Translations under genes and position numbers: made by a program | NCBI GenBank assembly: GCA_016871755.1 | Contig: VHCJ01000014.1 | Location: 1 to 64,000, forward strand | Source: Verrucomicrobiota bacterium | GTDB lineage: Bacteria > Verrucomicrobiota > Verrucomicrobiia > Opitutales > Opitutaceae | DNA: 64,000 nt | Direction: 5' to 3' | In this document: one piece after another, positions 3,318 through 26,270 of the stretch | Position numbering within the stretch: position 1 is the stretch's first letter | How the letters are laid out: every line of letters starts with the position of its first letter | Notes under the pieces: model-generated | Told to the model about the DNA's origin: nothing | What the model saw: only the letters and a program-made list of their open reading frames with translations | Databases searched by the model: none

Positions 3318-4544
3318 ATGAAAATTGTTGATGTTCGTACGACGCTGCTGACCGGGCCCTCGACCCACGATCCCTTTCTGCGCGAGGCGCGTAAGCTGCG
3401 GAGCGCGGCGTTCGTCGAGGTCATTACGACTGATGGCCTGATTGGCGTCGGTGAGACCTACGCTGGCTACGCCTGCCCGGAGGTGATTCCGAGCATCGTC
3501 GACTTTTTCCGGCCCATCCTCGTCGGCCAGACAGTGGACGATATCCCCGCACTGTGGCGACGCATGTACCGGTGCGGTAACTCGTGGTGCCGCGTTGGAC
3601 TCGGTACGGCGGTTCTCTCGGGTATCGAGGCTGCGCTTTGGGACCTGAAGGGCAAACGGGCCGGCCTGCCGGTGCATGCACTGCTTGGAGGAGCCAAGCA
3701 TGACAGGCTCCCTTGCTACGCCACTGGAGGACCGGCGAACTATCCCAAGGAGAATCTCGGGCGGAAGATCGACCACTATTTCAGCCTTGGGTTCCGGGGC
3801 ATCAAGGTCGCCGTCGGCAGCTTCGCTCGCGATGGCGGGTGGTACACACCGGAAAGCGAGGCGGAGGCGGTCGACTTTGAGGCCGACAAACTGCGTTTCA
3901 TGCGGGAGCGCGCCGGGAAGGATGCGTGGATCATGCTCGACGCCCACATGGACAACAAAGAGGGGGCAATCTGGTCTCTCGAAACCTGTGTGGCGGTGGC
4001 ACGCGCGCTCGAGCCCTTCGACCTTTTCTTCTTCGAGGAACTGCGGCCCTACACGGACCCGTGGGGGTATGCCGAGTTGTGCCGCCGGACGAGCATTCCG
4101 ATCGCGGGTGGCGAGTTCCTCACGGCAACCTATGAATGGAGAGTCTTTTCGGAGCAGGACTGCTTCGATATCGGGCAACCCGACGCCTCCTTCACGGGGG
4201 GACTGGGGGAGTTCCTCGCGGTCGCCGGAATGCTCGGCGCCCGGGGCAGGCAGGTCGCCACTCACGCGTGGGGCGCCGGCGCCTCGCTCATGCAAAACGT
4301 TCACGCAGGCTTCGCCGCGGCCAACACCTGCATGCTGGAGGTTCCCCCGGACTACGGGCCCCTGCACTCCGAATTGATCGATGGCGGACTGATCCTGCGC
4401 GACGGCTTTATCCTTCCGCCCGAAAGGCCCGGGCTCGGCATCAGGCTGACCGACGACATCCGTCGCCGCTTCCCCTTCCGGCCAGGTTCGGGGGAGTTCA
4501 TCAGCGTGCCCGGGAAAATCCTCAACGACGATCTCCTCCCATGA
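3318..4544 (+). CDS. Enolase-superfamily sugar-acid dehydratase (copy 1)
   Basis: This 408-residue protein belongs to the mandelate racemase/muconate lactonizing enzyme group. Metal ligands are Asp208, Glu240 and Glu266. The His316-Asp289 dyad has the 27-residue spacing of mandelate racemase (297 and 270). Lys163 lies on the second barrel strand, but the second lysine of a KxK motif is replaced (KVA), which favours a dehydratase over a racemase. The usual EEP motif reads EEL at 240-242. The expected reaction is dehydration of an aldonate to a 2-keto-3-deoxy acid. Its stop overlaps the next start by 4 bp (ATGA), so it is translationally coupled to the dehydrogenase. An ungapped paralogue lies at 24036. 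Confidence 0.88.
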   Translation: MKIVDVRTTLLTGPSTHDPFLREARKLRSAAFVEVITTDGLIGVGETYAGYACPEVIPSIVDFFRPILVGQTVDDIPALWRRMYRCGNSWCRVGLGTAVLSGIEAALWDLKGKRAGLPVHALLGGAKHDRLPCYATGGPANYPKENLGRKIDHYFSLGFRGIKVAVGSFARDGGWYTPESEAEAVDFEADKLRFMRERAGKDAWIMLDAHMDNKEGAIWSLETCVAVARALEPFDLFFFEELRPYTDPWGYAELCRRTSIPIAGGEFLTATYEWRVFSEQDCFDIGQPDASFTGGLGEFLAVAGMLGARGRQVATHAWGAGASLMQNVHAGFAAANTCMLEVPPDYGPLHSELIDGGLILRDGFILPPERPGLGIRLTDDIRRRFPFRPGSGEFISVPGKILNDDLLP

Positions 4545-5551
4545 ACATCCTCATCGATCTGGTGCCTCATGTCCCGGCCCTCCAGGCCATCCGCGCATCG
4601 GGTCGTCACACGCTGGAGGTGATGGACCCGCCGTTGGAGCAGCGGAGGCGAATCGATCCCGCCCGGCTGCAAGAGGTTGAGGTCCTGCTGTGCACGTTTC
4701 CCCCGGAGAACTTTGCCGACCTGCCGCGCCTGCGTTGGATCCAGTTGTCATCGACTGGCTACAGCCAGCTCTTCGGGCTGGGGCTGGCGGCCCGCCGCAT
4801 TCGGGCGACCAATTCCCGCGGCTGCTTTGATTGCCCGATCGCGGAGTGGAACGTGGCGATGATCGTGAATCTCGCGCGTGACCTCCGGCAGATGATCCGC
4901 AACCAGGACGCGGCGGTGTGGGACCGCTCCGCCCGTTTTCAGCGCGAGGTTCGCGGCCTGACCGTCGGCCTTTGGGGCTACGGCGGAATCGGACGCGAAA
5001 CCGCGCGTCTGTGCCGTGCGCTCGGCTTGCGCGTGCACGTGCTGACGCGGCAGGGAGTTTCTGATCGCGGGGATACCTATCTCGTGCCGGGAACCGGCGA
5101 TCCGACGGGCACGTTGCCCGACCGTACTTTCCGGGCGGGGGAGGAACTCGAGTTTCTTGCCGGCCTCGACTTCCTCGTGATCGGCATGCCCCTGACCAAG
5201 GCGACCGACGGGCTCATCGGTGAGCGCGAGCTGCGCGCGCTTCCCCCGCACGCGTTCGTGCTCAATCCCGCGCGCGGCCCGATCATCCAGGAGGCTGCGC
5301 TCCTGCGGGCGCTGCGCGAGGGTTGGATCGCCGGGGCGGCGCTCGATACGCACTACGCCTATCCGCTTCCCGCGGAGCATCCGCTCTGGCGGATGAACAA
5401 CGTGATCCTCACGCCGCACATTTCCGGCTCGGGCCTGAGTCCGCACTTCCTTGAGCGTGTCTGGGACATCTTTTCGCTCAACCTTGAACGAATGGAGCGG
5501 GGACAGCCGCTCCTGAATGAATTGTCCGCCGACCAACTGGCGGGCGGTTGA
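4541..5551 (+). CDS. D-2-hydroxyacid dehydrogenase family protein (copy 1), atypical triad
   Basis: The 336-residue protein has the D-isomer-specific 2-hydroxyacid dehydrogenase fold. The Rossmann motif GYGGIG is at 146-151, Arg245 in NPARG and His293 in TPH. The acid that normally completes the Arg-Glu-His triad, five residues after the Asp of the 'LD' motif, is Tyr274. Strand beta-2 ends in VLTR with no acidic residue, which suggests NADP(H) over NAD(H). An insertion with a VPGTGDP motif (182-188) follows. It is coupled by ATGA to the dehydratase before it. It probably reduces or oxidises the 2-position of a sugar acid in the same pathway; the direction is not known. Confidence 0.85.
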   Translation: MNILIDLVPHVPALQAIRASGRHTLEVMDPPLEQRRRIDPARLQEVEVLLCTFPPENFADLPRLRWIQLSSTGYSQLFGLGLAARRIRATNSRGCFDCPIAEWNVAMIVNLARDLRQMIRNQDAAVWDRSARFQREVRGLTVGLWGYGGIGRETARLCRALGLRVHVLTRQGVSDRGDTYLVPGTGDPTGTLPDRTFRAGEELEFLAGLDFLVIGMPLTKATDGLIGERELRALPPHAFVLNPARGPIIQEAALLRALREGWIAGAALDTHYAYPLPAEHPLWRMNNVILTPHISGSGLSPHFLERVWDIFSLNLERMERGQPLLNELSADQLAGG

Positions 5552-5582
5552 ACTCGCACCCCGTCCTTTGCCTCTCACGATC

Positions 5583-6893
5583 ATGTTTCGCCGCCCCCGA
5601 TTACTCGCCTCATTCGCCCTCGCCCTGCTCCCAGCCTTGCCGCTGGCATCGCAGTCCACGGTCCGCTTCGAGGAGAAGCTTATCTGGAACGACTACACCT
5701 ATGGTTTCGGCGTTCAGGCGGCCGATCTCGATGGCGACGGGTTCGTCGACCTCGTGACGGCTGACACCTCCGGCTTCGTCCAAGCCGAGGCGTACGCGGG
5801 AGAGCCTCCGGGCAGCGGACCGACGGATGCTGGAATCCGGCGGCCGGCGATGTCGGGCGGACCCTCGCCGCGCAACAGCCATGTGTATTGGTTTCGCAAT
5901 GACGGACGCGGTGGGTTCGAGCGCCGCTACATTGTCCGCGATGATCCCAATCGCCGGTTGGAGCGGCATGTGATTGTGGACCTGAATGGTGACCGACGTC
6001 CTGACGTCATCATGGTGGACAACTTCCTCGGCGACATCGTTTGGTTCGAGAATCCAGGATCCGACGCCCTCAAGCGCGGGGACCTTTGGCGGAAGCGCTT
6101 CATTTCCAAGGGAGGCATGTTTGGATCGGTGGACGTCACGGTGGCGGACTTCGACGGCGACGGTTTGCTCGACGTAGTCGGTGCGGGCTGGCGGCTGGGA
6201 AACTGCTTCACGTTCTTCCGGAATCCCGGCCCACTCTCGGCGGCGGAGTGGCCGGGAGCGGTGATCGACAGTGGTTTTCCGGGTGCGTCCTGCGTCGTGG
6301 CGGGTGACATCGACGGCGACGGCCGGGGCGACGTGCTGGCGACGAGTCGGGACTCGCGGGCGGTGATGTGGTATCGAGCGCAATCCGGTCCCGGCGGCCT
6401 CGTCTGGCGCCGAAACGTGATCGATCTCACCCCGAGTCCCGAGCCTGTTTTCGCGAAGCTCGCGGATCTCAATCGCGACGGCCGATTGGACGTTGTGCTC
6501 GCGTGGGGCGGATATCTCTCCATCCCGGAAGGCAAGCCCCGCCCTGGTTCCGTGGTGTGGTATCGCAACGCGGGAGTCGCGGATGACCGGGTGCAGTGGA
6601 GCAAGCACGTCATCAGCCATGAACTGCCCGGGGCGGTCGATGTTGTTGTCGCCGACTTCAATGGTGACGGTCGCGACGACGTGGCGGCGCTCGGTTGGAT
6701 GCCGGGAGAGATCGCGTGGTTCGACAACGCCGGCGATCCTGCGGGCCGCTGGCGGAAGCACTCCGTGAAGACCAACTATCCCAACGCCAACCAGATCATC
6801 GCCGCTGACTTCGATCGTGACGGTCGCCTCGACCTCGCTGCGATCGCCGACTACGGAGCGATGGAGCTGAGTTGGTGGCGCAACGTCCCATGA
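5583..6893 (+). CDS. Exported FG-GAP/VCBS repeat protein
   Basis: The 436-residue protein has a signal peptide (residues 1 to about 23, ending LASQS) and seven calcium-loop repeats of the D-x-(D/N)-x-D-G-x-x-D type. They include DLDGDGFVD, DLNGDRRPD, DFDGDGLLD, DIDGDGRGD, DLNRDGRLD, DFNGDGRDD and DFDRDGRLD. Seven repeats predict a seven-bladed integrin-like propeller. It has no recognisable catalytic domain and probably binds a carbohydrate or protein outside the cytoplasm. ATG 5583 lies 31 bp after the dehydrogenase, so it is likely in the same transcript. About 200 bp with no gene (6894-7097) follow. Confidence 0.85.
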   Translation: MFRRPRLLASFALALLPALPLASQSTVRFEEKLIWNDYTYGFGVQAADLDGDGFVDLVTADTSGFVQAEAYAGEPPGSGPTDAGIRRPAMSGGPSPRNSHVYWFRNDGRGGFERRYIVRDDPNRRLERHVIVDLNGDRRPDVIMVDNFLGDIVWFENPGSDALKRGDLWRKRFISKGGMFGSVDVTVADFDGDGLLDVVGAGWRLGNCFTFFRNPGPLSAAEWPGAVIDSGFPGASCVVAGDIDGDGRGDVLATSRDSRAVMWYRAQSGPGGLVWRRNVIDLTPSPEPVFAKLADLNRDGRLDVVLAWGGYLSIPEGKPRPGSVVWYRNAGVADDRVQWSKHVISHELPGAVDVVVADFNGDGRDDVAALGWMPGEIAWFDNAGDPAGRWRKHSVKTNYPNANQIIAADFDRDGRLDLAAIADYGAMELSWWRNVP

Positions 6894-7097
6894 GTCGACT
6901 CCGCCGGATCCTTCCGCCTTCGGTCAACTGCTCGCGCGCGCTGATCGAATCCGAATTTCCTCACTTCTCCAATCTCGTCTCCATCGTCCTCTGCCGATCC
7001 GGCCCTTCGAACCAGATCAGCCCCTCCCATCTGAGTCGTCGAAGACTGTCCACATCCCCATCCTGATCCTTTTTCCCAAACCCTCAGCCTCTTCCCC

Positions 7098-8048
7098 ATG
7101 TCCAAGAAACTTGTCCGTCTGAATCGAAAGAACCTTCGCGGAGTCTGGTGTGCCTTGATCGTTCCGTGGAATGCCCGCGGAACCGTGGATGCGCGCCGCT
7201 TTGCCCGTGAAATCCGGGCCTACCGGGGCACTGGGGTGCATGGGGTCTACACGGGAGGCACGACCGGAGAGTTCTACGCCCAGTCCGATGCGACCTATGA
7301 GCGGATTACGGAGATCGCCTGTGAGGAGGCGCACGCCAGCGGCCTGCCGATCCAGATTGGGGCCACGGCTTTGAGCACGCTGACGGCAAGGCAGCGCATC
7401 CGTCATGCCGTGAAGTCCGGGGCGGACGCGATCCAGATCGCGCTGCCCTGCTGGCTGGAACTCAAGGATGACGAGGTGCTCCGGTTTGTCCGGGAAATCG
7501 CGGACGAAGCGGGATCGACGCCGATCGTGCTGTACCTGACCAGTCGCTCGAAGCGGAAGGTCGCCCCGCCGCTGTTCGGCGAACTGGCCGCGGCAGTCCC
7601 GACCTTTATCGGCACAAAGGACACGGGCAGCGACCTTGAGACGGTCCGTGCGCTCCTGCAGGCGGCGCCGGAGGTGGCGATTTTCGGTGGAGAGGACTTT
7701 TATGAACGCATTCCGGTGGGTGGTCGAGGAGGGTACTGCTCGATCACTGGATTCAATGCCCGCAAAGTCGTGGAACTCTACGAACTCTGCGCGGCGGGTC
7801 GCATGGACGAGGCGAAGCCGTTGGCCGATGCGATCCACCGCTATCTGTACGAGGCGTTGATTCCGCTGGTCAAGGAGCAGGGACTCTGGGACTCAGCGGT
7901 CGATCGAATCCAGCGCGTAGCGGGTGGGGTGGATGTCGGCGTCGCCTGCCAGTCTCCCTATCGCAGCGGCACGGCGGCGCACGTCCGGCAGGTAATCGCG
8001 TGGGTCCGCAAGCACACCCCCGAGTTGCTGCCGGACCACCTCCGATGA
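7098..8048 (+). CDS. DapA/NanA-family class I aldolase
   Basis: The 316-residue TIM barrel belongs to the dihydrodipicolinate synthase/N-acetylneuraminate lyase family. GGTTGE (53-58) binds the pyruvyl carboxylate, Tyr146 is the general acid/base and Lys174 in GTKDTG forms the Schiff base. The usual YNxP after the tyrosine is YLTSR, unlike true DapA, so a role in catabolic cleavage of a 2-keto-3-deoxy acid to pyruvate plus an aldehyde is more likely than lysine synthesis. Some family members are dehydratases (KDG type), which cannot be excluded. The start follows a pyrimidine-rich stretch and no Shine-Dalgarno sequence. Confidence 0.85.
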   Translation: MSKKLVRLNRKNLRGVWCALIVPWNARGTVDARRFAREIRAYRGTGVHGVYTGGTTGEFYAQSDATYERITEIACEEAHASGLPIQIGATALSTLTARQRIRHAVKSGADAIQIALPCWLELKDDEVLRFVREIADEAGSTPIVLYLTSRSKRKVAPPLFGELAAAVPTFIGTKDTGSDLETVRALLQAAPEVAIFGGEDFYERIPVGGRGGYCSITGFNARKVVELYELCAAGRMDEAKPLADAIHRYLYEALIPLVKEQGLWDSAVDRIQRVAGGVDVGVACQSPYRSGTAAHVRQVIAWVRKHTPELLPDHLR

Positions 8049-9331: not shown

Positions 9332-10945
9332 ATGACCTCGCGCACACCTCCTCGAATCCCGTTGTCGCTCCCTCGGACCATGCCGATCGGCACGTGCCGT
9401 CGAATCACTGTTCTCACTCTGGCATCCCTCTCGGCCGTCTTCGGTCAAGGCGCGCGCCCGGTGGAGGATCGCCTGCAACCCCTGGTCGACGCGACCCTCG
9501 TGGCCAGTGCGACCGGTGCCCGCCTCGTGCAGCATGCTCCGGTCTCCGGCGGCATCGCCCTCCGGTCGGAGCGTCCGTGGGAGGGTGACACCTTCTACAT
9601 CAGCTCCGTTCACCGGCAGGACGGCGTTTACCGCATGCTCTACCGCGGCGTGGACAAGCGCACGGACAGCGAGACGTATCACCTCTGCCTCGCGACCAGC
9701 AAGGACGGGATCACGTGGGAGCGCCCCTCGCTCGGCCTGATCGACTTCGATGGCTCGCGCGACAACAACATCATTTCGGACGGGCGGGGCCAGCGGCTCG
9801 GCATGGGTTTCACCTTCCACGATCCGCGGCCGGGGGTGCCGGCCAATGAACGCGTGAAGGCGTTCGTGTGGTCGGACGGCAAGCGGTACTACCATTACTC
9901 CGCGGGCCGCCCGGAGCGGAAGCTCGTTGTTCTGGGGTCCGCCGACGGAGCCGCGTTCCACGAAACGACCATCCAGTCGAAGCTGTCCAGCGATCGGCCC
10001 AACGCCTTCGACGGTGGGAGCATCTTCTGGTCCGAGGCCGAGCAACTCTTCGTCGGCTATTTCCGCTGGTGGGATCGCGACGCGAAGCCGCATGCGCGCT
10101 CGCTGCAGGACTGGATGTTGCCCCAACTCGGCGACGGTGTGCGTTCGGTGTTTCGCTCCACCTCGAAGGACCTGGTCGAGTGGTCGCCGGAGCAGTCGAT
10201 GTCGTACGGTGACACCCCGCGGGAACACTTCTACGAGAGCGGAACGCATCCCTACTTCCGTGCGCCGGATCTCTACGTCGCGCTGGCGAACCGCTTCAAT
10301 CCCGGACGCCGCTCTCTCAGTCTCGAGGAGGAGAGGGAGCTCGCCATCCGCAGCGTCCCCGGCTCGCGCCAGCGCCGACTCACCTTCGCGAGTGACGCAA
10401 ATGACCTGATTCTCCTCGTGACCCGCCCCGGGAGCGATGTCTACCAGCGGCCGTTTCTCGAGGCGTTCATGCGTCCGGGCGCCAACCCCGGCAACTGGGC
10501 CTCGCGGAGCAACTACCCGCCGCAGCACGGCGGACTGTGGCAGACCAGCCCGACGGAGATGTCGTTCCTCGTGACCCGGCAGCACTTCCAGCCGGCGAAC
10601 CACCTCGAGCGCATGGTCCTGCGTCTCGATGGCTTTGCCTCGATGAACGCCGGCTACGCAGGCGGCGAATTCGTGACTGTTCCCCTCACGTTCCGCGGCG
10701 ACGAGCTCCAGCTGAATTTCGCCACGAGCGCGGCGGGTGAAGTGCGGGTGGAGCTGCAGGACGAGAAGGGAAACCCGCTGCCGGGCTTTTCGCTCGATGA
10801 CTGCGACCCGCTCATCGGCGATCGCATCGCGCATCGCGTGAGCTGGCGGGGGAGGGAGTCGGTGAGTGGCTACGCCGGCCTTCCCATCCGACTGCGCATC
10901 CAGCTGATCGATGCGGACGTTTACTCCTTCCGCTTCACTCGGTGA
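9332..10945 (+). CDS. Exported propeller plus beta-sandwich protein of glycosidase type
   Basis: The 537-residue protein has an N-terminal signal ending near residue 40 (AVFGQG). The propeller part has YRMLYRG and TSKDGITW blocks like the protein at 755, and the C-terminal third matches the partial gene at the left edge. ATG 9332 follows a C/T-rich tract; ATG 9380 is a second possible start that would still leave a signal. It is probably a periplasmic or surface hydrolase or binding protein for the glycan used by this cluster. Related families are often annotated as GH32/GH43-like hydrolases; the active-site residues were not assigned. Confidence 0.72.
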   Translation: MTSRTPPRIPLSLPRTMPIGTCRRITVLTLASLSAVFGQGARPVEDRLQPLVDATLVASATGARLVQHAPVSGGIALRSERPWEGDTFYISSVHRQDGVYRMLYRGVDKRTDSETYHLCLATSKDGITWERPSLGLIDFDGSRDNNIISDGRGQRLGMGFTFHDPRPGVPANERVKAFVWSDGKRYYHYSAGRPERKLVVLGSADGAAFHETTIQSKLSSDRPNAFDGGSIFWSEAEQLFVGYFRWWDRDAKPHARSLQDWMLPQLGDGVRSVFRSTSKDLVEWSPEQSMSYGDTPREHFYESGTHPYFRAPDLYVALANRFNPGRRSLSLEEERELAIRSVPGSRQRRLTFASDANDLILLVTRPGSDVYQRPFLEAFMRPGANPGNWASRSNYPPQHGGLWQTSPTEMSFLVTRQHFQPANHLERMVLRLDGFASMNAGYAGGEFVTVPLTFRGDELQLNFATSAAGEVRVELQDEKGNPLPGFSLDDCDPLIGDRIAHRVSWRGRESVSGYAGLPIRLRIQLIDADVYSFRFTR

Positions 10946-10975: not shown

Positions 10976-11809
10976 ATGACCACCTCGACTCCTTTCCCCC
11001 GGCTTCCCGCCCTCGACGCCCACGGGCACTACGGCACGTATCACGACGCGAACCGGCTGCTCTCCGAGTTCTCGAGCGCCTCCGCGGCCGAAGTGGCGCA
11101 GCGCGCCCGGGCGTGCGGGGTGACGTGGACCATCGTGTCCCCGCTCGCCGGCCTGTTCCCGCGCGGTCGGAATCAGTCTGTGATGGCCGCCAACGAAGCC
11201 GCCCACTGCGATGTGCAGGCGACGCCCGGCCTGCTTCAGTATGTCATCGTGAATCCCCTCCAACCGGAGACGTACGACCAAGCGCGGCGAATGCTCAAGA
11301 CGCCTTGGTGCGTCGGCATCAAGGTTCATCCGGAGGAACATACCTACCGCATCTCCGACCATGGCGACGAACTCTTCGCGTTCTTTGAGGAGACCGGCGT
11401 GCCAGTGAAGGCGCACAGTGGCTGCCCGAACAGCTTGCCCGAGGACTTCGTGCCCTTCGCCAATCGCTTCCCGCGTGCCCGGGTCATGCTGGCGCACCTG
11501 GGCAACGGGGCGGGTGCGGGTGGACGCGTGGATCTGCAGGTGCGGGCCGTGCAGGCGGCTCGTCACGGCAACCTCTGGATCGACACCTCCAGCGCCCGCA
11601 GCATTCTCCCTAGGCTAGTGGAGTGGGCGGTGGAGGAGGTGGGGGCGGAGCGCCTGATCTTCGGCAGCGACACGCCGCTGTACCACGTGGCGATGCAACG
11701 GGAGCGCATCGAGTGCGCGGAGATCTCCGAAGCAGACCGTCGACGGATCCTGTGGGACAACGCCCTCGCCCTGTTCGGGTTGGAGCGACTTCGCGACCAA
11801 GCGGGTTGA
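10976..11809 (+). CDS. Amidohydrolase-2 family TIM-barrel hydrolase
   Basis: The 277-residue protein has the metal-dependent hydrolase signature DAHGH (His16, His18). Further likely ligands are His118 (KVHPEEH), His147 (KAHSG), His174 (LAHLG) and Asp232 (FGSDTPLY). Members of this family include sugar lactonases and decarboxylases. A lactonase that opens an aldonolactone before the dehydratase at 3318 would fit the context, but this is inference. It lies 30 bp after the propeller protein and 30 bp before the symporter, all rightward, and its start follows a long pyrimidine tract. Confidence 0.82.
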   Translation: MTTSTPFPRLPALDAHGHYGTYHDANRLLSEFSSASAAEVAQRARACGVTWTIVSPLAGLFPRGRNQSVMAANEAAHCDVQATPGLLQYVIVNPLQPETYDQARRMLKTPWCVGIKVHPEEHTYRISDHGDELFAFFEETGVPVKAHSGCPNSLPEDFVPFANRFPRARVMLAHLGNGAGAGGRVDLQVRAVQAARHGNLWIDTSSARSILPRLVEWAVEEVGAERLIFGSDTPLYHVAMQRERIECAEISEADRRRILWDNALALFGLERLRDQAG

Positions 11810-11839
11810 TTGTCCGGCTGAACGTAACCCGCCGCCATC

Positions 11840-17276: not shown

Positions 17277-18245
17277 TCAGTTCGGGGCGATCTCGGTCAG
17301 CGCGATCTCGCGCCCGCCGGACTCGCGGCTGCGGATGCCGGCGATGACGAGCTTCATGAGCTCGACGGTCTCGGCGAACGGGTACGGATGGACGCCCGTG
17401 CGCAGGTACTGGATGAAAGCCTCCAACTGGGCGCGGAACGCGAAGTAGGAGTCGCCGGAGGCGGTCTGGACCCGCCCGGCTGTGCCGCACAACTGCAGCA
17501 CGCCGAAGCTTCCGTACATGTCGGCCGACGCCACGACGACGACATCCACGCCGCGGCGGTGCGTGAGGTGGACGACGTTGCGGGCGGCGGTGCCCGTGTT
17601 GCGCACGGTGAGGAAGCCCGGGCCGAGGATCGGATATACGGCCTCAAGCGCGTGGATCCCGTAGGTCTCCCAGCTCTTGGCGGTGGTGATGCTGACAAAG
17701 CGCAGGTCGCCGAGGTCGCGCGTCGAATGCCGGTAAGGCATGAACTCCTTCGTGTAGCGCATGCTGCTCGACGACATGAGCGGACGGCCCTGGTTGTGCC
17801 ACTGCACGAATGTCTGCAGGTCGGGCTCGTTGTCGGTGAGCGGCTTGTCGACGAAGACCGGCACCCCGGCCTCGATGAAGGGACGGGCGCGTTCGACGTG
17901 CTCGTGGCCGATGTCGGTGGCGATGATCACCGCGTCCACGTGTCCGATGACGTCGGTGGGCTTCTCGACGACGTGCGGGATGAGCGAGAGACGGGCGACG
18001 TGCTCGGCGGTGAAACCGCCGTTGCCCGCGCAGTGGATGTGGGTGACCCGCGCGCCCGGGATGTTGACCGTCGCGGCGGGCTCCTTGTTCAGGTAGGCCG
18101 GAATGCCGGGGAACGGACATTCCTTGGTCATCAGTTCGCGGTCGTAGCCGTTGAACAGGGCGCTCCAGGAGTACGGATGACCGTTGCCGACGGTCGAGCC
18201 GAGCATGGCGAGACGGATCTCGTTGGGATTGCGGACGAGGGACAT
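17277..18245 (-). CDS. Gfo/Idh/MocA-family oxidoreductase
   Basis: The 322-residue protein has a Rossmann N-terminus without a classical GxGxxG (LGSTVGNGHP), then a DKP motif at 133-135 in place of the usual EKP, and a C-terminal alpha/beta domain with a candidate catalytic histidine in YGIHALE. It lacks a signal peptide. It probably oxidises or reduces a sugar with bound NAD(P). It is in the leftward operon, 9 bp after the ferritin-like gene and 31 bp before the aldolase. The unusual N-terminal loop may mean altered cofactor binding. Confidence 0.8.
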   Translation of the reverse strand: MSLVRNPNEIRLAMLGSTVGNGHPYSWSALFNGYDRELMTKECPFPGIPAYLNKEPAATVNIPGARVTHIHCAGNGGFTAEHVARLSLIPHVVEKPTDVIGHVDAVIIATDIGHEHVERARPFIEAGVPVFVDKPLTDNEPDLQTFVQWHNQGRPLMSSSSMRYTKEFMPYRHSTRDLGDLRFVSITTAKSWETYGIHALEAVYPILGPGFLTVRNTGTAARNVVHLTHRRGVDVVVVASADMYGSFGVLQLCGTAGRVQTASGDSYFAFRAQLEAFIQYLRTGVHPYPFAETVELMKLVIAGIRSRESGGREIALTEIAPN

Positions 18246-18254: not shown

Positions 18255-19493
18255 TTACTCGACGTTGATCGGCAGCTTGCCGGTGCGGTATTCACTTTCC
18301 CACACCTTCAGCACGTCGGCGGTGTAGGTGTCGACCGGGCGGGTCTCGCCGATGTGGCGGAGCATTTCCGGCAGCCAGCGGTGCCCGAAGCGCACGTGCT
18401 GGGTTTCGTCGGCGATGTCGTAGCGCACGAACTGTTCGCTCAAGCGGTCGCCCGACTTCTCATGGGCCTCGACGCGGCGGTGGCGGTACGGGAAAGCATG
18501 AACCTCGTTGCCCATGGTGAGCATGCAGTACTGCATGACCGGCGGGAACTGGCAGCGCCAGCGGAACACCTGCAGGTACTGGGGGCTCTGGAAGGGATCG
18601 AGGCCGTTGCGGCGCATCCACTCGTAGCCCATCAGGCAGTGGCGAACTTCGTCGTAGAGGTGCCGGGCGCTGTCGAATTGGAATTCCCACGGCATGTCGC
18701 GGAGCCCGTAGAGGACGACGGCGACGGTCTCGGCGGCGAGCATCTCGGTGGAGTAGCGTTCGAATTCCTCGACCGTGTGGGCGCGGTAGTCGTCCTCGGG
18801 AGGCATGACCGCGAAGTCGGCGCCGCGCTGGGTGAAGCGCTCGTCGCGCGCGGCCTCGCGGGGCGGCGTGAACTCCCGGCGCTCGGGCGGGGTGGCGGGG
18901 GCGGCCGCGCGCGGCGCGAGCCCGGAGACGCCGCCGGCTGCGTCGAGGAGAGCGCGGATGTAGTGTTCCCAAACTTCCGATGCGGGCGATGCGGGCCGGC
19001 CGGCGTCGACGGCCGCGAGGAGTGGCAGCACGCGCTCCTGCTGGGCGCGCAGGTCGAGCTGCGCATGCTGGATCGCGTAGACGCTGGGCAGGTCGCTGTT
19101 CGGAAAGGTCGCCCGCTCATGATTCGCGAGCGCTTGGATGAGTGCCGGAAACACGACGCGGTAGATGCCACCGGCCAGAGCGTGCTCGTCCGGCGCATGG
19201 CGGAGTTCCGTGGCCAATCGCACGAGAGCCGGGTCGTCGGGCCGCTGGAACGCGGGCGACTGGATTTCGCGCAACCGAAGGTAGAACGCGTTCACGTGCA
19301 ACGCGCACTCCCAGATCGAGCGCCCCGCCTCACACTTGGTCTCAAAGTGCCCGATCGCCGGCATCCACCCGGCCAGGATCTGGAGAATCTCGTGCTCGAG
19401 GTAGCGGTACCGATTGAGCAGGCGACGGTTCAGGTCGATGGGCAGGCTGCCGGAATCCGGTGCCGTCGAGGAGGAGTCGGGGAGTGAGACCAT
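18255..19493 (-). CDS. Ferritin-like (DUF455-type) putative di-iron protein
   Basis: The 412-residue protein has a C-terminal four-helix bundle with di-iron ligands: Glu255, then Glu282-x-x-His285 (YDEVRH), and Glu363-x-x-His366 (ADETQH), with Glu330 or Glu353 as a possible bridging ligand. The N-terminal half (about 20-160) is also helical and rich in Glu and His but has no clear motif. Members of this superfamily are oxidases, hydroxylases or iron stores. It lies between two Gfo/Idh/MocA genes in one operon (gaps of 9 and 7 bp), so it likely takes part in the same pathway and may be an oxygen-dependent step. ATG 19493 was chosen over an upstream frame with no domain. Confidence 0.7.
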   Translation of the reverse strand: MVSLPDSSSTAPDSGSLPIDLNRRLLNRYRYLEHEILQILAGWMPAIGHFETKCEAGRSIWECALHVNAFYLRLREIQSPAFQRPDDPALVRLATELRHAPDEHALAGGIYRVVFPALIQALANHERATFPNSDLPSVYAIQHAQLDLRAQQERVLPLLAAVDAGRPASPASEVWEHYIRALLDAAGGVSGLAPRAAAPATPPERREFTPPREAARDERFTQRGADFAVMPPEDDYRAHTVEEFERYSTEMLAAETVAVVLYGLRDMPWEFQFDSARHLYDEVRHCLMGYEWMRRNGLDPFQSPQYLQVFRWRCQFPPVMQYCMLTMGNEVHAFPYRHRRVEAHEKSGDRLSEQFVRYDIADETQHVRFGHRWLPEMLRHIGETRPVDTYTADVLKVWESEYRTGKLPINVE

Positions 19494-19500
19494 GGGAGGG

Positions 19501-20514
19501 CTAGGGTTGGAGATCGGCGCAACGCACCCGCACCCCCTGGTCGGCCGAGGCGAGCGCGGCGAGATTGAAGCGAAGGGTTTGTTCGGCGGCTTCAAGCGAG
19601 CACAACGCGGCCGAGCGGCCCTCGACGAGGTCGAGGAAGCGGTTCGCCTGCACGATGAAGAACGTGTCGCGCTCGGCGGTCGGCATGGCGTGCCACGTCC
19701 AGGCAGTCTCTCCCAAACGCTGCACCCCCCAGCGCCGCAGATGCACTTCCATGCGGACGCTGCCGGCCTCGGCGTTGAACTGCGTGATGGATTCGTTCGG
19801 GGCCTGGAACTGGTTCATGGTGTAGTTGACCAGCACGTCCCCGTGGCGCGCGCAGAGGTTCACGGTGTCCTCGACGGTCACATGGGCCAGCACCTGATGC
19901 GCGCAGTCGCAGTAGACCGAGTCGGTCGGTCCGATCACGCTCTCCACCCAGTTCGCCACGTGGGTGAGTCCATCCTGGATCGCTCCGCCCCCGGTGGCGC
20001 GGTCCTTGTAGTACGTCTGATGGTACGGCACCGTGTGGGCCGGGCGGCACGTCGGGAAGTGCTGGCCGCTGCTATGCACGACCTGCTTGACGGCTCCAAT
20101 GCCCCCGCCGCGGATGAAGTCGCGCACGTCGGAGTAGAGATCGTAGGAGTGCAGCACGTACGCCACCGCCACGCGAAGGCCGGTGCGGTCCCGCAACTCC
20201 CGGAGTTCAGCCACTCCGGCGAAGGACTGCGAGAGAGGCTTCTCGACGAGGGCGTGGCAGCCGGCGGCCAGTGCCTGCCGTGCCATCGGCACGTGGAGGT
20301 GGGCGGGGGTGCAGATCACCACCACCTGATGCCGCCCCGAGGCCAGTTCACCGGCCCAGTCCGTGGACGTCGCCACGCCGTAGGTTTGCGCCAGCGTGGC
20401 CAGCAGTGTGGGGTTGGCATCGCAGGCGGTGACGCGGGCGCGTCCGGTTTTCTGGAAGCAGCGCAGGTGCCGCTCGCCAATGCTGCCGCAGCCCACTACG
20501 AGGACGGAAATCAT
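19501..20514 (-). CDS. Gfo/Idh/MocA-family oxidoreductase
   Basis: The 337-residue protein begins with the NAD(P) motif GCGSIG (residues 8-13) and has EKPLSQS, the standard EKP lysine of the family, plus a C-terminal substrate domain. There is no signal peptide, so it acts in the cytoplasm on a sugar or cyclitol-like substrate. It is the first gene of the leftward block, and its leader (20515 onward) is pyrimidine-rich and carries one GTATAC site about 75 bp from the start codon. Its partner genes are the ferritin-like protein and a second oxidoreductase. Confidence 0.88.
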   Translation of the reverse strand: MISVLVVGCGSIGERHLRCFQKTGRARVTACDANPTLLATLAQTYGVATSTDWAGELASGRHQVVVICTPAHLHVPMARQALAAGCHALVEKPLSQSFAGVAELRELRDRTGLRVAVAYVLHSYDLYSDVRDFIRGGGIGAVKQVVHSSGQHFPTCRPAHTVPYHQTYYKDRATGGGAIQDGLTHVANWVESVIGPTDSVYCDCAHQVLAHVTVEDTVNLCARHGDVLVNYTMNQFQAPNESITQFNAEAGSVRMEVHLRRWGVQRLGETAWTWHAMPTAERDTFFIVQANRFLDLVEGRSAALCSLEAAEQTLRFNLAALASADQGVRVRCADLQP

Positions 20515-20748: not shown

Positions 20749-20788
20749 ACGCGCCAGCGGGCACCCGCCTGTGCGGCGCAGCCAACCT

Positions 20789-22981
20789 ATGAACCAACTC
20801 CCCCGCTGCGGCGCCACCTTGCGCCGCGTCTGCCAGATCGTCGCGGCTTTCGCCGCGGTTTCCGTATCGGTGAATGCGCAGACTGCCGCCTCCCCGTCCT
20901 CCTCCGGACAGAAGGAAGAGGTGATCGCGCTTTCGAAGTTCGAGGTCTCGACCACCCAGGGCAAGGGCTACGTGGCCACGAATGCCGCCACGGGTTTCAA
21001 GACCAACCAGGAACTCATCAAGATCCCGCAGTCGGTCACCGTCGTCACCCGCGACTTGATCGATGACATCGGCGCGACCAAGACCTCCGACGTGCTGCAG
21101 TATGCCGGCGCGTCGCAGTTCTACCGCGGTGAGTCGATCCGCCTGCGCGGCGCCCGGGCGCTGAATCCCTACATGGATGACGCGATCGAGAACGTGCCGT
21201 ACAGCGACAACGTCAACATCGACTCCTACGAAATCATCCGCGGACCGGCGGGCGTGCTCTACGCCAACGCCAGCGTCGCGGGCGTCGTGCTGAAGTCCAC
21301 CAAGAAGCCGCTGCCGTACTCGCGGAACACGGTGAGCTTCTCCATCAAGGACTGGGGCATGCACCGGACCGAGATCGACTCCACCGGGCCGGCGGGCCAA
21401 CTCGGCGACTCCAAGGTCTCCTACCGCGTCGCGGCCGCCTATCAGGACGGCGACGCGTACTTCAAGAACGTCGAGGACCAGCGCTTCGCGGTCCATCCCA
21501 CGATCCAGGTCGACCTGAAGAACACCACCGTGCGTGCAGCGATCGACTATGTCGACGTGACGAGCATCGCCGGCGGGCAGAGCTTCGTGACGCCGGACGG
21601 CAAGCTCTACACGGGCGCCGGTCGCCGTGAAGCCTACTACCCGAAGGGCATCATGGAAAACCACAAGCAGGAGCGTCAGCGCATTGCGATCCTGCAGCGC
21701 TTCGGCGACGGCTGGGAGGCCAAGTTCTCCGCGTCCCATCTCCGGTACGTCCGCCACGGCACGAACGTGCTGCCGAACAACCTGAACCTCCAGACCGGCC
21801 TGTTCAATCTGTTCGCCCGGCGCAACTATCAGCGTCAGGAGAACTGGGTCGTCAACGGCGACGTCCTCGGCAACTACAACATCGGCCCCATTGCCAATCA
21901 AAGCGCGGCGGGCTTCACGATGACCGACGAAGTGAATCGCGCGGCGTTCATCGCCAACGCTGCCTTCGGCGTGCAGGGTTTCCCGATCGCGAACCCCCAG
22001 ATGGATCGCGTCGTTGTTCCGTCCTACAGTTCCTACGCCCCCCCCTCCACGGCGGGCAGTTGGACCAACAATCGGCGGTCGACCTATTACTACCAGCATC
22101 AAGCCGACATCATCAAGGATCGCCTGATCGTGGTGGCGGGTGTGAGCGCGGCAGCGCTGCAGATCAACGACGTGCCGAATATCAATGCCCGCACGACGGC
22201 CGGTGGCACGCGCATCGTGAATTTCGAGGAGAACCTGCGCCGTATCGGCGTGGTCGTGAACGTGACCAAGGACGTCGCTGTCTACGCCCTCGATTCCACG
22301 ACGTTCGCCCCGCAGGGCAACAGCAACACCCGCGACTACTTCGGCGTCCTCCTGCCCGCTCAGGTCGGTTCCGGCAAGGAGTTCGGAGTGAAGACCTCCC
22401 TCTTCGACGGTCGCCTGTCGGCGACGGTCGCCAACTACGAGATGGAGCTGTCGAACGTGGCGGTTCTCGCCGGTCCGTTCAGCCCGATCACGGGCACGGG
22501 TTACTTCGTGGCGAGCGGCCTCCAGAAGCAGAAGGGCTGGGATGCCTCGATCGCGTACTCGCCCATCCCCGAGTGGCAGATCATGGTCACCGGGTTCAAG
22601 GGCACGACGAAGGATCAGACGGGTGCGACGGTTAACAACACCTACGGCAACCTGTTCTCGTTCTTCACGCGCTACGAGTTCAGCGGTGGCTCGCTCAAGG
22701 GCTTCAGCTTCGGTGGTGGTGGCTCGAAGACGGGTGACAACATCTTCACCAGCCTCGGTGGCTACATCCTGCCGGCCGGCTCGACCCAGAAGTCGATCAC
22801 GCTGGAGTCGGTGTGGAACATGACCGCCTTCGCGTCCTACAAGCTGAACCGCAACTGGACGGTCCGCCTCAACATCGAGAACCTGCTCGACAAGGCGTTC
22901 GCCCTCGGTGCGCAGACCCCGATCTACGTCGATCCGTCTCCGCCGCGCACGTTCCAGCTGAGCGCGGTCTACACGTTCTAA
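20789..22981 (+). CDS. TonB-dependent receptor
   Basis: The 730-residue outer-membrane receptor has a signal peptide (to about residue 36, VSVNAQT), an 'ALSKFEVSTTQG' segment typical of Opitutaceae receptors, and a plug domain from about 60 to 190 (IPQSVTVVTRDLI, IRLRGAR, YEIIRGPAGVLY). The rest forms the beta-barrel, and it ends in an aromatic strand (LSAVYTF), as outer-membrane proteins do. No SusD partner is present. It would import a ligand too large for porins, probably the oligosaccharide or siderophore-like substrate of this cluster. An intrinsic terminator follows, so it appears to be transcribed alone. Confidence 0.93.
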   Translation: MNQLPRCGATLRRVCQIVAAFAAVSVSVNAQTAASPSSSGQKEEVIALSKFEVSTTQGKGYVATNAATGFKTNQELIKIPQSVTVVTRDLIDDIGATKTSDVLQYAGASQFYRGESIRLRGARALNPYMDDAIENVPYSDNVNIDSYEIIRGPAGVLYANASVAGVVLKSTKKPLPYSRNTVSFSIKDWGMHRTEIDSTGPAGQLGDSKVSYRVAAAYQDGDAYFKNVEDQRFAVHPTIQVDLKNTTVRAAIDYVDVTSIAGGQSFVTPDGKLYTGAGRREAYYPKGIMENHKQERQRIAILQRFGDGWEAKFSASHLRYVRHGTNVLPNNLNLQTGLFNLFARRNYQRQENWVVNGDVLGNYNIGPIANQSAAGFTMTDEVNRAAFIANAAFGVQGFPIANPQMDRVVVPSYSSYAPPSTAGSWTNNRRSTYYYQHQADIIKDRLIVVAGVSAAALQINDVPNINARTTAGGTRIVNFEENLRRIGVVVNVTKDVAVYALDSTTFAPQGNSNTRDYFGVLLPAQVGSGKEFGVKTSLFDGRLSATVANYEMELSNVAVLAGPFSPITGTGYFVASGLQKQKGWDASIAYSPIPEWQIMVTGFKGTTKDQTGATVNNTYGNLFSFFTRYEFSGGSLKGFSFGGGGSKTGDNIFTSLGGYILPAGSTQKSITLESVWNMTAFASYKLNRNWTVRLNIENLLDKAFALGAQTPIYVDPSPPRTFQLSAVYTF

Positions 22982-23112: not shown

Positions 23113-24039
23113 ATGCCCCGCTCCCGTCCGCAGCCCCGCGCTGCCGTGCGAGTTCCTGCTCCGGCACCGGTTTCCGCGCCTGCTCCCGCACCCGCGTCGG
23201 TGCCCGCGCGTCCGCTCTGGCTCTTCGCCACCCTCTGGTCGCTCCGCCAGTATCCCACCGCCAAGCGCGAGTGGACGTGGGAACGAAAGTTCCGCGCGAT
23301 TCGGGACGCGGGCTTCGACGGCGTGTTCTCGCCGCCCCGGCCGGAACTGTCCCAGAGGGGAGACCTGCGCTACCTTGCGGTCACCAGCCTGAGCCCGGGC
23401 ATGGACCTCGCGGCGCCCTTCCGCGCGGCCAAGGATCTCGGGGCCGTCGCGATCGACATCCAGCTTGGTGACTACGACTCCCCGCTCGCGGACATGTTGG
23501 ACCTGGCCCGCACGCTTGCGGGGGTCTCCCGCGACGTCGGGTTGCCCTTCGCGATCGAGACGCATCGGGACACCTTTACGGAGACGCCGGAGGCGACGGT
23601 TGCCCTGGCGCGGGCCTTCCAACGTCGGACCCGCTCGAGGTTGCCGCTCTGCCTCGACCACTCGCACTTCGCGATTGTGCGCCACCTCGCCCCGGGGACC
23701 TTTTGGGAACGCCTCCGGGAGCCGGAAGAACTGCTCGCGGCGGCAACGCAGTTCCATCTCCGGCCGTTCAACGGCCACCATTGCCAGATTCCCGTTCTCG
23801 ATGCCCGCGGGCGTCGCACGCCGGAGTACCGCGATTGGCTCGGCTACGCCGCTTCGCTCCTGCAGCATCTTCGCGCCCAGCCCACCGCCGAGCCGGTGCT
23901 TGCCGTCCCGGAGATCGGCCACGCCGCCCCGTCGTACGGGCTGAGTTGCTTCAGCGACACCTGGGCCGACGTCAGCGCCGTGGAGCGCGACCTGCGGGCG
24001 CTCTGGCGCGCGAACGCTTCCTCTCCCTCCACCCCATGA
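23113..24039 (+). CDS. Sugar phosphate isomerase/epimerase-like TIM barrel
   Basis: The 308-residue protein resembles xylose-isomerase-like TIM barrels. Candidate metal ligands are a Glu in IETHRDTF, an Asp in LCLDHSHF, a His in FNGHHCQIP and a Glu in VPEIGH. Residues 8-35 are an Ala/Pro-rich stretch, odd for this family, so the real start may be further in (for example a GTG near 23146). It overlaps the next gene by 4 bp (ATGA), so it is coupled to the second dehydratase copy. It may interconvert the keto and aldo forms of a sugar or epimerise it upstream of the acid pathway. Confidence 0.75.
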   Translation: MPRSRPQPRAAVRVPAPAPVSAPAPAPASVPARPLWLFATLWSLRQYPTAKREWTWERKFRAIRDAGFDGVFSPPRPELSQRGDLRYLAVTSLSPGMDLAAPFRAAKDLGAVAIDIQLGDYDSPLADMLDLARTLAGVSRDVGLPFAIETHRDTFTETPEATVALARAFQRRTRSRLPLCLDHSHFAIVRHLAPGTFWERLREPEELLAAATQFHLRPFNGHHCQIPVLDARGRRTPEYRDWLGYAASLLQHLRAQPTAEPVLAVPEIGHAAPSYGLSCFSDTWADVSAVERDLRALWRANASSPSTP

Positions 24040-25250
24040 CCATCACCGATGTCCGCACCGTCCTTCTCACCGGACCGTGCACGAACGATCCCTTCCTTCG
24101 CGAGGCGCGCAAACTGCGCAGCGCCGCCTTCATCGAAATCCTGACCGACGGTCCGCACGTCGGACTCGGCGAGACCTACGCCGGATACTTCTGCCCGGAA
24201 GCGGTGCCGGCCATCGTCGACTTTTTCAAGCCCATCCTCGTGGGGCAGAACGTCGACGACATCCCCGAACTCTGGCGCCGCATGTACCAGTGCGGCAACT
24301 TCTGGTGCCGGGTCGGTCTCGGGACGATCGTGATCAACGGCATCGAAGCCGCGCTCTGGGACCTGAAAGGCAAGCGGGAGGACAAGCCCGTGCATGCGCT
24401 CCTCGGCGGCGCCAAGTTCGACCGCCTGCCCTGTTACGCCACCGGCGGGCCGAGCAACTATCCGAAGGAAAAGCTGGCCCGGAAGATGGATCACTATTTC
24501 TCGCTGGGCTTCCGCGGGATCAAGGTCGGCTCCGGGAGTTTCTCGGCGGAGCAGGGCTTCTATTCCCCGGCGGACGCGCGCGAGGCGGCCGACTTCGAGG
24601 CGGACAAGGCCGCGTTCATGCGGGCGCACGCTGGGAAGGACGCGTGGATCATGTTCGACGGTCACATGGGCAACAGCCCGCACCGCACGTGGGATCTCGA
24701 GGTCGCGACCGCCGTCGCGCGGGCGCTCGAGCCCTTCGATCTCTTCTTCCTCGAGGAACCGCTGCACTACACCGATCCGTGGGGTTACGCGGAATTGTGC
24801 AAGGCGACCACGGTCCCGATCGCCGGCGGCGAATGCCTGACGGCGACTTACGAGTGGAAGGTCTTTACGCGCCAGGACAGCTTCGACATCGGCCAGCCCG
24901 ATGCCTCGTTCACGGGCGGACTGGGCGAGTTCATGGCGGTGGCCCGCCTCCTTGAGGAGCGCGGCCGCAAGATCGCCACGCATGCCTGGGGCGCGGGCGC
25001 CTCCCTGATGCAGAACGTGCATGCGGGCTTCGCGGCACCCAATACCTGCATCCTGGAGATCGCCCCGGACTATGCCGGCCTTCACTCCGAGATGATCGAC
25101 GGCGGACTCGTGATCCGCGATGGCTACGTCCTGCCCCCGGATCGCCCGGGACTCGGCGTGGTGCTGACGGAGGAGACGCGGCGTCGCTACCCGTTCAAGC
25201 CCGGCTCCGGCGAATTCAACAGCGTCCCGGGCAAGATCCTGCGTGACTGA
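24036..25250 (+). CDS. Enolase-superfamily sugar-acid dehydratase (copy 2)
   Basis: The 404-residue protein aligns without gaps over its full length with the dehydratase at 3318. Metal ligands Asp208, Glu240 and Glu266, the Asp289-His316 dyad and Lys163 keep the same positions. This copy keeps the standard EEP at 240-242, where copy 1 has EEL. The second lysine of KxK is Gly165 (KVG). Differences near the metal site (FDGHMGNS here, LDAHMDNK in copy 1) suggest a different stereochemistry or chain length of substrate. It is coupled to the TIM-barrel gene before it and followed 9 bp later by the second dehydrogenase copy. Confidence 0.88.
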   Translation: MTITDVRTVLLTGPCTNDPFLREARKLRSAAFIEILTDGPHVGLGETYAGYFCPEAVPAIVDFFKPILVGQNVDDIPELWRRMYQCGNFWCRVGLGTIVINGIEAALWDLKGKREDKPVHALLGGAKFDRLPCYATGGPSNYPKEKLARKMDHYFSLGFRGIKVGSGSFSAEQGFYSPADAREAADFEADKAAFMRAHAGKDAWIMFDGHMGNSPHRTWDLEVATAVARALEPFDLFFLEEPLHYTDPWGYAELCKATTVPIAGGECLTATYEWKVFTRQDSFDIGQPDASFTGGLGEFMAVARLLEERGRKIATHAWGAGASLMQNVHAGFAAPNTCILEIAPDYAGLHSEMIDGGLVIRDGYVLPPDRPGLGVVLTEETRRRYPFKPGSGEFNSVPGKILRD

Positions 25251-25259
25251 CGCTCCTCC

Positions 25260-26270
25260 ATGAAAGTCTTGATCGACGTCCCGGCCGAGCCAGCAGCGCT
25301 GAATCGCCTGCGCGAAGGAAGCACACACGTCTTCGACCTCGTGGTGCCACCGGCCGAGGTGGAGCGGGAATTGCCGGCGGAGCGTCTCCGCGACGTCGAC
25401 GTGCTCTTCTGCACCTATCCGCCCGCGAATCTGGTGGATATGCCGGCGCTGCGCTGGATCCAGATCGCCTCGACGGGCTATTCGCAGCTCTTCCGTCACG
25501 CGCTCCCGTCGCGCCGCATCCGGGCGACGAACGGCCGCGGGTGCTTCGATGCGCCGATCGCGGAGTGGAACGTCGCGATGATGATCAATCTCGCCCGCGA
25601 TTTCCGCCAGATGATCCGCAATCAGGAGGCCCGGGTCTGGGACCGCGGCGCAGCCTTCCAGCGCGAGATTCGCGGCCTCACGGTCGGCATCTGGGGCTAT
25701 GGCGGGATTGGACGCGAGACGGCACGGCTGGCGCGGCACCTCGGACTCCGCGTCCACGTGCTCACCCGCGACGGTGTGCGTCCGACGGGACAGGTGTACC
25801 AAGTGCCGGGCACGGGGGATCCCGAGGGGGTTCTGCCCCATCGTGTCTTCCGCTCCGGCGAAGAGAAGGCGTTCCTTTCCGACCTCGATTTCCTCATCGT
25901 CGCCACGCCCCTGACCCCGGCGACGGAGGGCTTGATCGGCGAACCCGAGTTGCGGGCGCTGCCGCCGCGGGCCTTCGTGCTCAATCCGGCGCGGGGTCCG
26001 ATCATCCGCGAGGAGCCGCTCCTCCGCGCCCTTCGCGAGGGATGGATCGCGGGCGCCGCGCTCGACACGCACTACCGTTATCCCATGCCGCCGGAGCATC
26101 CGCTCTGGGGCTTGCCGAACGTGATCTTCACGCCCCACATCTCGGGCTCGAGTCTGAGTCCGAATTTCCGCAGCCGCCTCTGGGACATCTTCGCCCTGAA
26201 CGTCGGCCGCTTCGAGCGGGGAGAGCCGCTGCTCAACGAACTCACGGCGGCGCAGCTGGCGGGCGCCTAG
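25260..26270 (+). CDS. D-2-hydroxyacid dehydrogenase family protein (copy 2), atypical triad
   Basis: The 336-residue protein has the same length as the copy at 4541 and aligns without gaps. GYGGIG (146-151), Arg245 and His293 are kept, and the catalytic Glu position is again Tyr274. Beta-2 again ends VLTR without an acidic residue, so NADP(H) is likely. The pairing with a dehydratase in both copies shows that the two reactions are consecutive steps. It ends 213 bp before prfB, and I see nothing firm in that gap. Confidence 0.85.
   Translation: MKVLIDVPAEPAALNRLREGSTHVFDLVVPPAEVERELPAERLRDVDVLFCTYPPANLVDMPALRWIQIASTGYSQLFRHALPSRRIRATNGRGCFDAPIAEWNVAMMINLARDFRQMIRNQEARVWDRGAAFQREIRGLTVGIWGYGGIGRETARLARHLGLRVHVLTRDGVRPTGQVYQVPGTGDPEGVLPHRVFRSGEEKAFLSDLDFLIVATPLTPATEGLIGEPELRALPPRAFVLNPARGPIIREEPLLRALREGWIAGAALDTHYRYPMPPEHPLWGLPNVIFTPHISGSSLSPNFRSRLWDIFALNVGRFERGEPLLNELTAAQLAGA

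Follow-up and report, generated by a model that had tools for sequence, protein, structure and literature searches.

Why should a predicted sugar-acid dehydratase be followed by a 2-hydroxyacid dehydrogenase gene, and why would one genome carry two such pairs? The question is raised by a 64,000-nucleotide stretch of an Opitutaceae genome of the Verrucomicrobiota (GenBank assembly GCA_016871755.1, contig VHCJ01000014.1, positions 1 to 64,000; the window hereafter). The initial annotation had placed two dehydratase-dehydrogenase (Deh-Dh) pairs about 20 kb apart and reported that they align without gaps over 404 and 336 residues; both the positions and the alignments were confirmed, and we refer to the pairs as modules A and B.

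3318-4544, + strand: DehA, predicted dehydratase of module A, 408 amino acids (Pfam MR_MLE_N/MR_MLE_C; tree partner L025)
4541-5551, + strand: DhA, D-2-hydroxyacid dehydrogenase family with Tyr for the catalytic Glu, 336 amino acids (Pfam 2-Hacid_dh_C and alignment)
24036-25250, + strand: DehB, predicted dehydratase of module B, 404 amino acids (Pfam MR_MLE_N/MR_MLE_C; AlphaFold2 model, predicted local distance difference test score (pLDDT) 95)
25260-26270, + strand: DhB, D-2-hydroxyacid dehydrogenase family with Tyr274 for the catalytic Glu, 336 amino acids (Pfam 2-Hacid_dh_C; model pLDDT 95)

Two diverged copies of one gene pair

DehA and DehB are identical at 300 of 404 residues (74%), with four additional C-terminal residues in DehA, and DhA and DhB at 230 of 336 (68%), a likeness far beyond chance. 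The genes are tightly packed: the DhA ATG at 4541 overlaps the DehA stop codon by 4 bases, and the start of DehB overlaps by 4 bases (24036-24039) the end of an upstream sugar-isomerase-like TIM-barrel gene. At third codon positions the A and B copies agree in only about 50% of cases, which indicates an old divergence with purifying selection on the proteins. A recent tandem duplication was ruled out by this figure together with the placement of the two copies in different supported clades, and a search of the same genome found no close copies of the pair other than these two. A promoter scan of 3000-7200 and scans for Rfam families and tRNAs returned nothing useful.

The pair is conserved across genomes

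To follow the pair beyond this genome, we scanned genome contigs with DehB, kept 80 of 93 relatives (57 to 97% identity), and counted a Dh as a neighbor when it had at least 50% identity and lay on the same strand within 2.5 kb of the Deh. A Dh stands beside the Deh in 67 of these 80 loci; seven others end no more than 700 bases from the Deh, and six have room and no Dh. In locus L050 the gene order is reversed. Submitters assigned members of the main Deh clade to 12 phyla; some of these labels may be wrong because the genomes are mostly metagenome bins.

Separate searches of 387 genomes of the phylum for Dh (E-values to 1e-60) and Deh (E-values to 1e-90) agreed on the same nine genomes, the remaining 378 having neither gene. 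These genomes contain ten pairs, nine of them adjacent; in the tenth (genome G238) the two genes are about 11 kb apart on one contig. The distribution is thus patchy (9/387), and two genomes of the same genus, G082 and G105, gave no match at the thresholds applied to them. Pairwise similarities of the Deh proteins rise and fall with those of their Dh partners (r 0.79 over 65 pairs, with 0 of 2000 permutations equally high), a correlation that shared genome descent alone would also yield. The initial annotation had tied its proposal to the two genes being conserved together in related genomes, and so they are. Deh-Dh is a real, widely conserved two-gene module, and probably a catabolic one.

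The dehydratase lacks one lysine of its superfamily motif

By domain content and predicted fold, Deh is an enolase-superfamily member of the mandelate racemase subgroup. Both DehA and DehB contain the MR_MLE N- and C-terminal domains (Pfam), and the solved structures nearest to the AlphaFold2 model of DehB belong to the superfamily (20-32% identity, Z 43.6 to 47.3, among the 50 entries listed). Lys163, Asp208, His210, Glu240, Glu241, Glu266, Asp289, and His316 are invariant in an alignment of 78 close Deh relatives (78/78). In the DehB model, Asp208, Glu240, and Glu266, which we take to be the metal ligands, and Asp289 and His316, which we take to be the catalytic dyad, lie near strand ends (DSSP); His210 is presumably a second base, as in galactonate dehydratase. 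The KxK motif of the second strand is incomplete: Lys163 is kept in 78 of 78 relatives, and position 165, where the second Lys would stand, holds Gly in 55, Ala in 22, and Ser in 1. This does not bar superfamily membership, since 2qq6 and 3sjn of the same subgroup also lack KxK, and 2qq6 shares the Deh pattern of DxH with a lone Lys; 5olc and 4ggb, by contrast, carry the second Lys.

Deh resembles the galactonate/gluconate/mannonate/arabinonate dehydratase group (NF010624, NF040866, NF047820; PDB 2qq6, 3sjn, 5olc) in fold, acidic ligand positions, and Asp-His dyad, but differs in the low identities given above and in scores far under all the curated cut-offs. The galactonate dehydratase equivalog NF010624 (cut-off 311) was not reached by DehA (135.8 bits) or DehB (145.9 bits). 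An equivalog that would name the pathway was sought and not found: DehA, DehB, and six further Deh proteins scanned against NCBIfam (types II, III, IV, V, VII, and L139; type VI left out) lie below every curated cut-off.

A tyrosine replaces the catalytic glutamate of the dehydrogenase

Dh is, on the evidence of fold and domain, a D-2-hydroxyacid dehydrogenase (2HADH) homolog and not a canonical enzyme. It has the 2-Hacid_dh_C domain and the 2-hydroxyacid dehydrogenase fold (Pfam; model pLDDT 95), and the best structural match of the DhB model is the Haloferax enzyme D2HDH (5mh5; Z 31.2 over 296 residues, root-mean-square deviation 2.6, 26% identity). The active site of D2HDH is given as Gly67, Arg226, Glu255, and His274 in the accessible text of its description (PMC12328707). 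Arg245, Tyr274, and His293 of DhB are spaced by 29 and 19 residues, exactly as are Arg226, Glu255, and His274 of D2HDH, placing Tyr274 at the position of the catalytic Glu. The Arg-Glu-His triad is thus incomplete, with Arg and His retained and Glu replaced, and Arg245, Tyr274, and His293 are each found in 66 of 66 close Dh relatives (DhA and DhB included). Gly73 is kept, Gly146 and Gly148 of the glycine-rich dinucleotide motif are invariant, and Arg170, which is of the NADP type and ends beta 2, is present in 65 of 66. Dh shares with DDH/GHRB-type 2HADHs (5mh5; GHRB 5v7n) the fold and the active-site Gly, Arg, and His, but has Tyr where they have Glu. A classification of 2HADHs lists Gln (formate dehydrogenases) and Val (subfamily X4) at this position, and Tyr goes unmentioned in the accessible part of that paper (PMC6303947).

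The Tyr-type proteins fall together on one side of a moderately supported branch (76/88) when 52 Dh proteins are placed in a tree. Among the Dh proteins found by a Dh search of the same genome, three of three Tyr-type and one of eight Glu-type adjoin a Deh. In a larger set of 43 distinct Dh proteins from this genome and the family, the figures are 20 of 21 for the Tyr-type, the unpaired one being where a contig begins, and 12 of 22 for the Glu-type; this set was partly first seen through Deh searches and omits seven Deh-paired Glu-type proteins (L113-L119), whose addition brings the Glu-type count to 19 of 29. The count from the single genome is the cleaner figure. Pairing with Deh is not limited to Tyr-type Dh, but no Tyr-type Dh in these sets stands unpaired where the contig leaves space for a Deh.

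Possible order of the two enzymes

What would the pair do? Our tentative preference, held at somewhat less than even probability, is a two-step catabolic module for sugar acids in which Dh acts before Deh and an aldolase follows. Each pair would contribute two enzymes working successively at carbon 2: with NADPH as reductant, Dh would convert a 2-ketoaldonate into a (2R)-2-hydroxy acid, and Tyr274 would stand in for the glutamate as the support of His293; Deh would dehydrate the resulting (2R)-aldonate across C2-C3 to a 2-keto-3-deoxy acid; and an aldolase of the DHDPS or HpcH type would cleave this to pyruvate and an aldehyde. Three genes of the window enter the argument:

7098-8048, + strand: DHDPS-family lyase, candidate 2-keto-3-deoxy acid aldolase (PF00701; adjoins the pair in relatives)
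16424-17245, - strand: HpcH/HpaI-type aldolase (PF03328; best NCBIfam match GarL, TIGR03239, under cut-off)
23113-24039, + strand: xylose-isomerase-like TIM-barrel protein (AP_endonuc_2, weak, under the curated cut-off)

Across the 80 Deh loci, within limits set by contig ends, relatives of the DHDPS gene occur in 21, of the HpcH gene in 14, of either in 29, and of the TIM-barrel gene in 3. The DHDPS gene lies directly upstream of Deh-Dh in eight Acidobacteria loci, and with one intervening gene in four more.

We prefer this order in part because these aldolase families require a 2-keto-3-deoxy acid, which suggests Deh as its producer rather than Dh as its consumer, and in part on stereochemical grounds: D-2HADHs yield (R)-hydroxy acids, and D-galactonate, which we take to be the substrate of the dehydratase type closest to Deh, is 2R. 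The known substrates of GHRB-type 2HADHs point the same way, as these enzymes bind and reduce 2-keto-D-gluconate according to the accessible text of PMC6303947. The conservation of the pair, the DxH and lone-Lys pattern shared with 2qq6, and a protein like D-galactonate transporters near one pair (described below) also count in favor of this order. By analogy, the predicted role of Dh is that of a GHRB-type 2-ketoaldonate reductase, its Arg170 being NADP-like only. The initial annotation had proposed a dehydratase-linked redox step outside the standard routes; the association stands, but a 2-ketoaldonate reductase acting ahead of a dehydratase would be ordinary chemistry.

Several observations weigh against this order. 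DehA, DehB, and Dh all score below the NCBIfam equivalog cut-offs; the Deh loci L024, L026, L030, L041, L044, and L056 have room for a Dh and no adjacent one; and an aldolase relative was undetected in 51 of 80 loci at the threshold used, within the DNA covered. Relatives of a candidate lactonase of the amidohydrolase family occur in only 2 of the 80. To our knowledge, enzymes that produce 2-ketoaldonates are absent from the Pfam families matched, and no search was aimed at them. The preference of Dh for NADP is predicted from a single residue, Arg170, and the loss of the catalytic Glu could signify a different reaction.

A rival reading puts Dh downstream, as a hydroxypyruvate or glyoxylate reductase acting on what the aldolase releases, a C3 or C2 compound; splitting of an aldarate, for instance, would give tartronate semialdehyde, which the TIM-barrel protein would isomerize and Dh would then reduce to glycerate. 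The overlap of the TIM-barrel gene with DehB fits this scheme, as do the GarL match of the HpcH protein and an L-talarate/galactarate dehydratase as the second NCBIfam match of both DehA and DehB (all under cut-off), and glyoxylate/hydroxypyruvate reductases are among the nearest solved 2HADHs. But Dh tracks Deh and not the isomerase (3/80) or the HpcH aldolase (14/80), and known glyoxylate/hydroxypyruvate reductases retain the Glu in the accessible part of PMC6303947; we regard the scheme as unlikely. Alternatively, Dh might act on the 2-keto-3-deoxy acid that Deh makes and reduce it to a 3-deoxy-2-hydroxy acid; overall the sugar acid would be deoxygenated, which would be unusual. Such reductive dehydration would suit the strict pairing, the 4-base overlaps and short gaps that suggest consecutive steps, and the NADP-type Arg170, but it would use up the very 2-keto acid that the pyruvate-releasing aldolase families (29/80 loci) need, and the Pfam families matched include no apparent use for a 3-deoxyaldonate, making it improbable in our judgment. 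Finally, a Tyr-type Dh may not be a keto-acid reductase at all, and could catalyze another reaction, such as imine reduction, or be a regulatory or structural partner of Deh. The Tyr in 66 of 66 close relatives and the imino acid reductase 6p2i among the structural matches would be expected on this account, which we nevertheless consider quite improbable given that Gly73, Arg245, His293, and the glycine-rich dinucleotide motif are retained and that, in the accessible text of PMC6303947, most formate dehydrogenases of the 2HADH family have Gln in place of Glu.

Do modules A and B serve two substrates?

The initial annotation read the two modules as parallel branches for related sugar acids and noted their different neighbors. 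The neighbors do differ, with an isomerase-like gene at DehB and a DHDPS-type gene in module A. In G007, of the same genus, however, relatives of the DHDPS and amidohydrolase genes directly adjoin a DehB-type pair, and relatives of the HpcH, SDR, and Gfo/Idh genes lie at a greater distance on that contig (C2, where L144 and L145 cover 60000-99800); in G055 the DHDPS and amidohydrolase genes are retained where DehA and DhA are absent; these arrangements make the neighbors weak evidence for two branches.

DehA is sister to L025 of another Opitutaceae genome (support 98), and the partners of DehB in the tree are L027 and L001 (support 100), both groups lying within one clade of 36 mostly verrucomicrobial rows (support 98). 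DehA departs at 14 positions common to 90% of the other Deh proteins, nine of which are also altered in L025; among the changes, G212D, P242L, and C267F adjoin catalytic residues. Departures at conserved positions number none in DehB and one in DhA. A separate lineage with 14 departures fits an altered substrate for DehA and an unaltered dehydrogenase step. The changes are not significantly clustered around the active site (P 0.32 for DehA, 0.07 for L025, and 0.20 for the shared changes), and five more distant Deh relatives exceed DehA in departing positions, which weakens the two-branch reading. Part of the proposal thus survives, in the separate lineage of DehA and its changed conserved positions, whereas the mixing of neighbors and the lack of significant active-site enrichment count against it. 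In the explanation that we prefer, modules A and B probably take related acids of different configuration, the difference residing in the dehydratase. That they are instead redundant copies acting on one substrate, which is compatible with any of the mechanisms above, has appreciable weight but is on the unlikely side: identities of 74% and 68%, the single departure in DhA, and the unclustered changes in DehA all speak for it, and the different supported subclades of DehA and DehB, with 14 departures against none, speak against it.

L025 is flanked by relatives of several module A genes, without the DHDPS or amidohydrolase gene. At this locus the Dh (11223-12186) appears split over two frames, possibly a bin error or a decaying gene.

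Relation to described pathways

Among the matches listed in the non-subscription literature, as far as their text was accessible, neither the gene pair nor the Tyr variant is described. Dh is an active-site variant, and the module is a new variation on known enzyme families. For a comparison with SAR202, we assume a correspondence between its COG numbers and the protein families of the window. Parallel non-phosphorylative sugar-acid pathways with many paralogous COG4948 dehydratases have been proposed for SAR202, with COG1028, COG0667, COG3618, COG1063, COG3836, and COG0329 as partners; unlike the pair described here, the redox partners there are NAD(P)-dependent dehydrogenases of COG1028, and no 2-hydroxyacid dehydrogenase is found in the seven sets in the accessible part of the paper (PMC10444878). 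A study of galactarate in A. niger was a lead, as an induced mandelate-racemase gene and an induced 2-hydroxyacid dehydrogenase gene are among the seven that it lists, but both mutants still consumed galactarate, as stated in the accessible text of PMC5153877.

Under a bolder reading, which we find distinctly unlikely as a whole, the Tyr-for-Glu Dh would be one old clade that coevolved with Deh in a previously undescribed redox-coupled sugar-acid dehydration, spread between phyla as a two-gene unit, with A and B as two specificities. Deh and Dh both belong to large families whose members are mostly without assigned function, and because a fixed pair imposes two coupled substrate constraints, a single screen could annotate many genes in bacteria labeled as 12 phyla. 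A Dh family that does work with Tyr for Glu would be a natural variant in which the contribution of the glutamate could be tested cleanly.

Other pairs of the two families

The Deh-Dh partnership is wider than the pair type of the window. Among 38 Deh places, six from the same genome (E-values to 1e-3) and 32 from other genomes of the family (E-values to 1e-60), a Dh of some type lies beside the Deh in 32; the six unpaired places are L083 and L086 (distant, same genome), L107 (contig end), L121, L135, and L160. A second, distant pair (36-40% Deh and 36-38% Dh identity) directly adjoins the main pair in L002, L004, L006, L014, and G007, and G071 contains three pairs of differing type within about 9 kb. 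L002, L004, L006, L014, L144, and L147 contain tandem arrays of two or three differing pairs, with Tyr- and Glu-type Dh adjacent. The genome of the window (G000) has two more Deh-Dh pairs of distant type, at C16:61348-63198 and C30:18874-20988 (L128, L129), the C30 pair being grouped with HpcH, TonB, and DHDPS relatives.

Neighboring genes

The remaining genes recognized between and around the modules are as follows.

10976-11809, + strand: Amidohydro_2 protein, candidate lactonase (PF04909; next to the DHDPS gene and the pair in G007)
11840-13312, + strand: sodium:solute symporter (PF00474)
13367-14092, - strand: GntR/FCD regulator (PF00392 and PF07729 in 13367-14530; start picked by eye)
14856-15632, - strand: SDR2, short-chain dehydrogenase (PF13561; start picked by eye)
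15640-16431, - strand: SDR1, short-chain dehydrogenase (PF13561; relatives near the pair in Larkinella and a Clostridia bin)
17277-18245, - strand: Gfo/Idh/MocA oxidoreductase (PF01408)
19501-20514, - strand: Gfo/Idh/MocA oxidoreductase (PF01408, PF22725)
20771-22981, + strand: TonB-dependent receptor (PF07715 plug)

SDR1 relatives occur in 12 of the 80 Deh loci. Between the two Gfo/Idh genes, 18255-19493 has a weak DUF455 match (under cut-off), and its position is kept in L001 and L027. The DHDPS-type gene of module A is preceded by a gene that is FG-GAP-like by eye. In G300, a DHDPS gene and a major facilitator superfamily protein like D-galactonate transporters (under cut-off) lie by the pair, and a GH38 alpha-mannosidase-family gene adjoins Deh in G238 and Dh in G382.

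Two reading frames, 752-2443 and 9374-10945, encode proteins of about 520-560 amino acids that are secreted-looking by eye and have no Pfam match; 84-701 is grouped with them. These large proteins contain short, weak stretches like beta-1,2-mannobiose or oligomannan phosphorylases, and their relatives occur in 20 of the 80 Deh loci, among which are loci of a Clostridia bin and of an Acidimicrobiia bin. They are possibly a new glycoside hydrolase or phosphorylase-like family.

A neighbor census covering 118 of 132 selected genes (long or clearly unrelated ones omitted; gene calls from a simple composition score) found BNR_2 in 18, DHDPS in 9, and NANM kelch in 5. In L174, a YhcH/YjgK/YiaL (DUF386) gene at 1151-1600 adjoins the pair; the family is related to N-acetylneuraminate anomerase, whose cut-off it does not reach. 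Relatives of this cluster stand next to the pair in L004, L005, L006, L007, L014, and L036, the family match coming from L174 alone. As BNR_2, DHDPS, NANM kelch, and YhcH/YiaL are broad families, sialic-acid use is a lead only. Directly after module B, 26484-27627 is prfB by eye. Its programmed frameshift site is of the typical kind, CTT TGA C at 26553-26559 following 24 codons and preceded by GGAGG.

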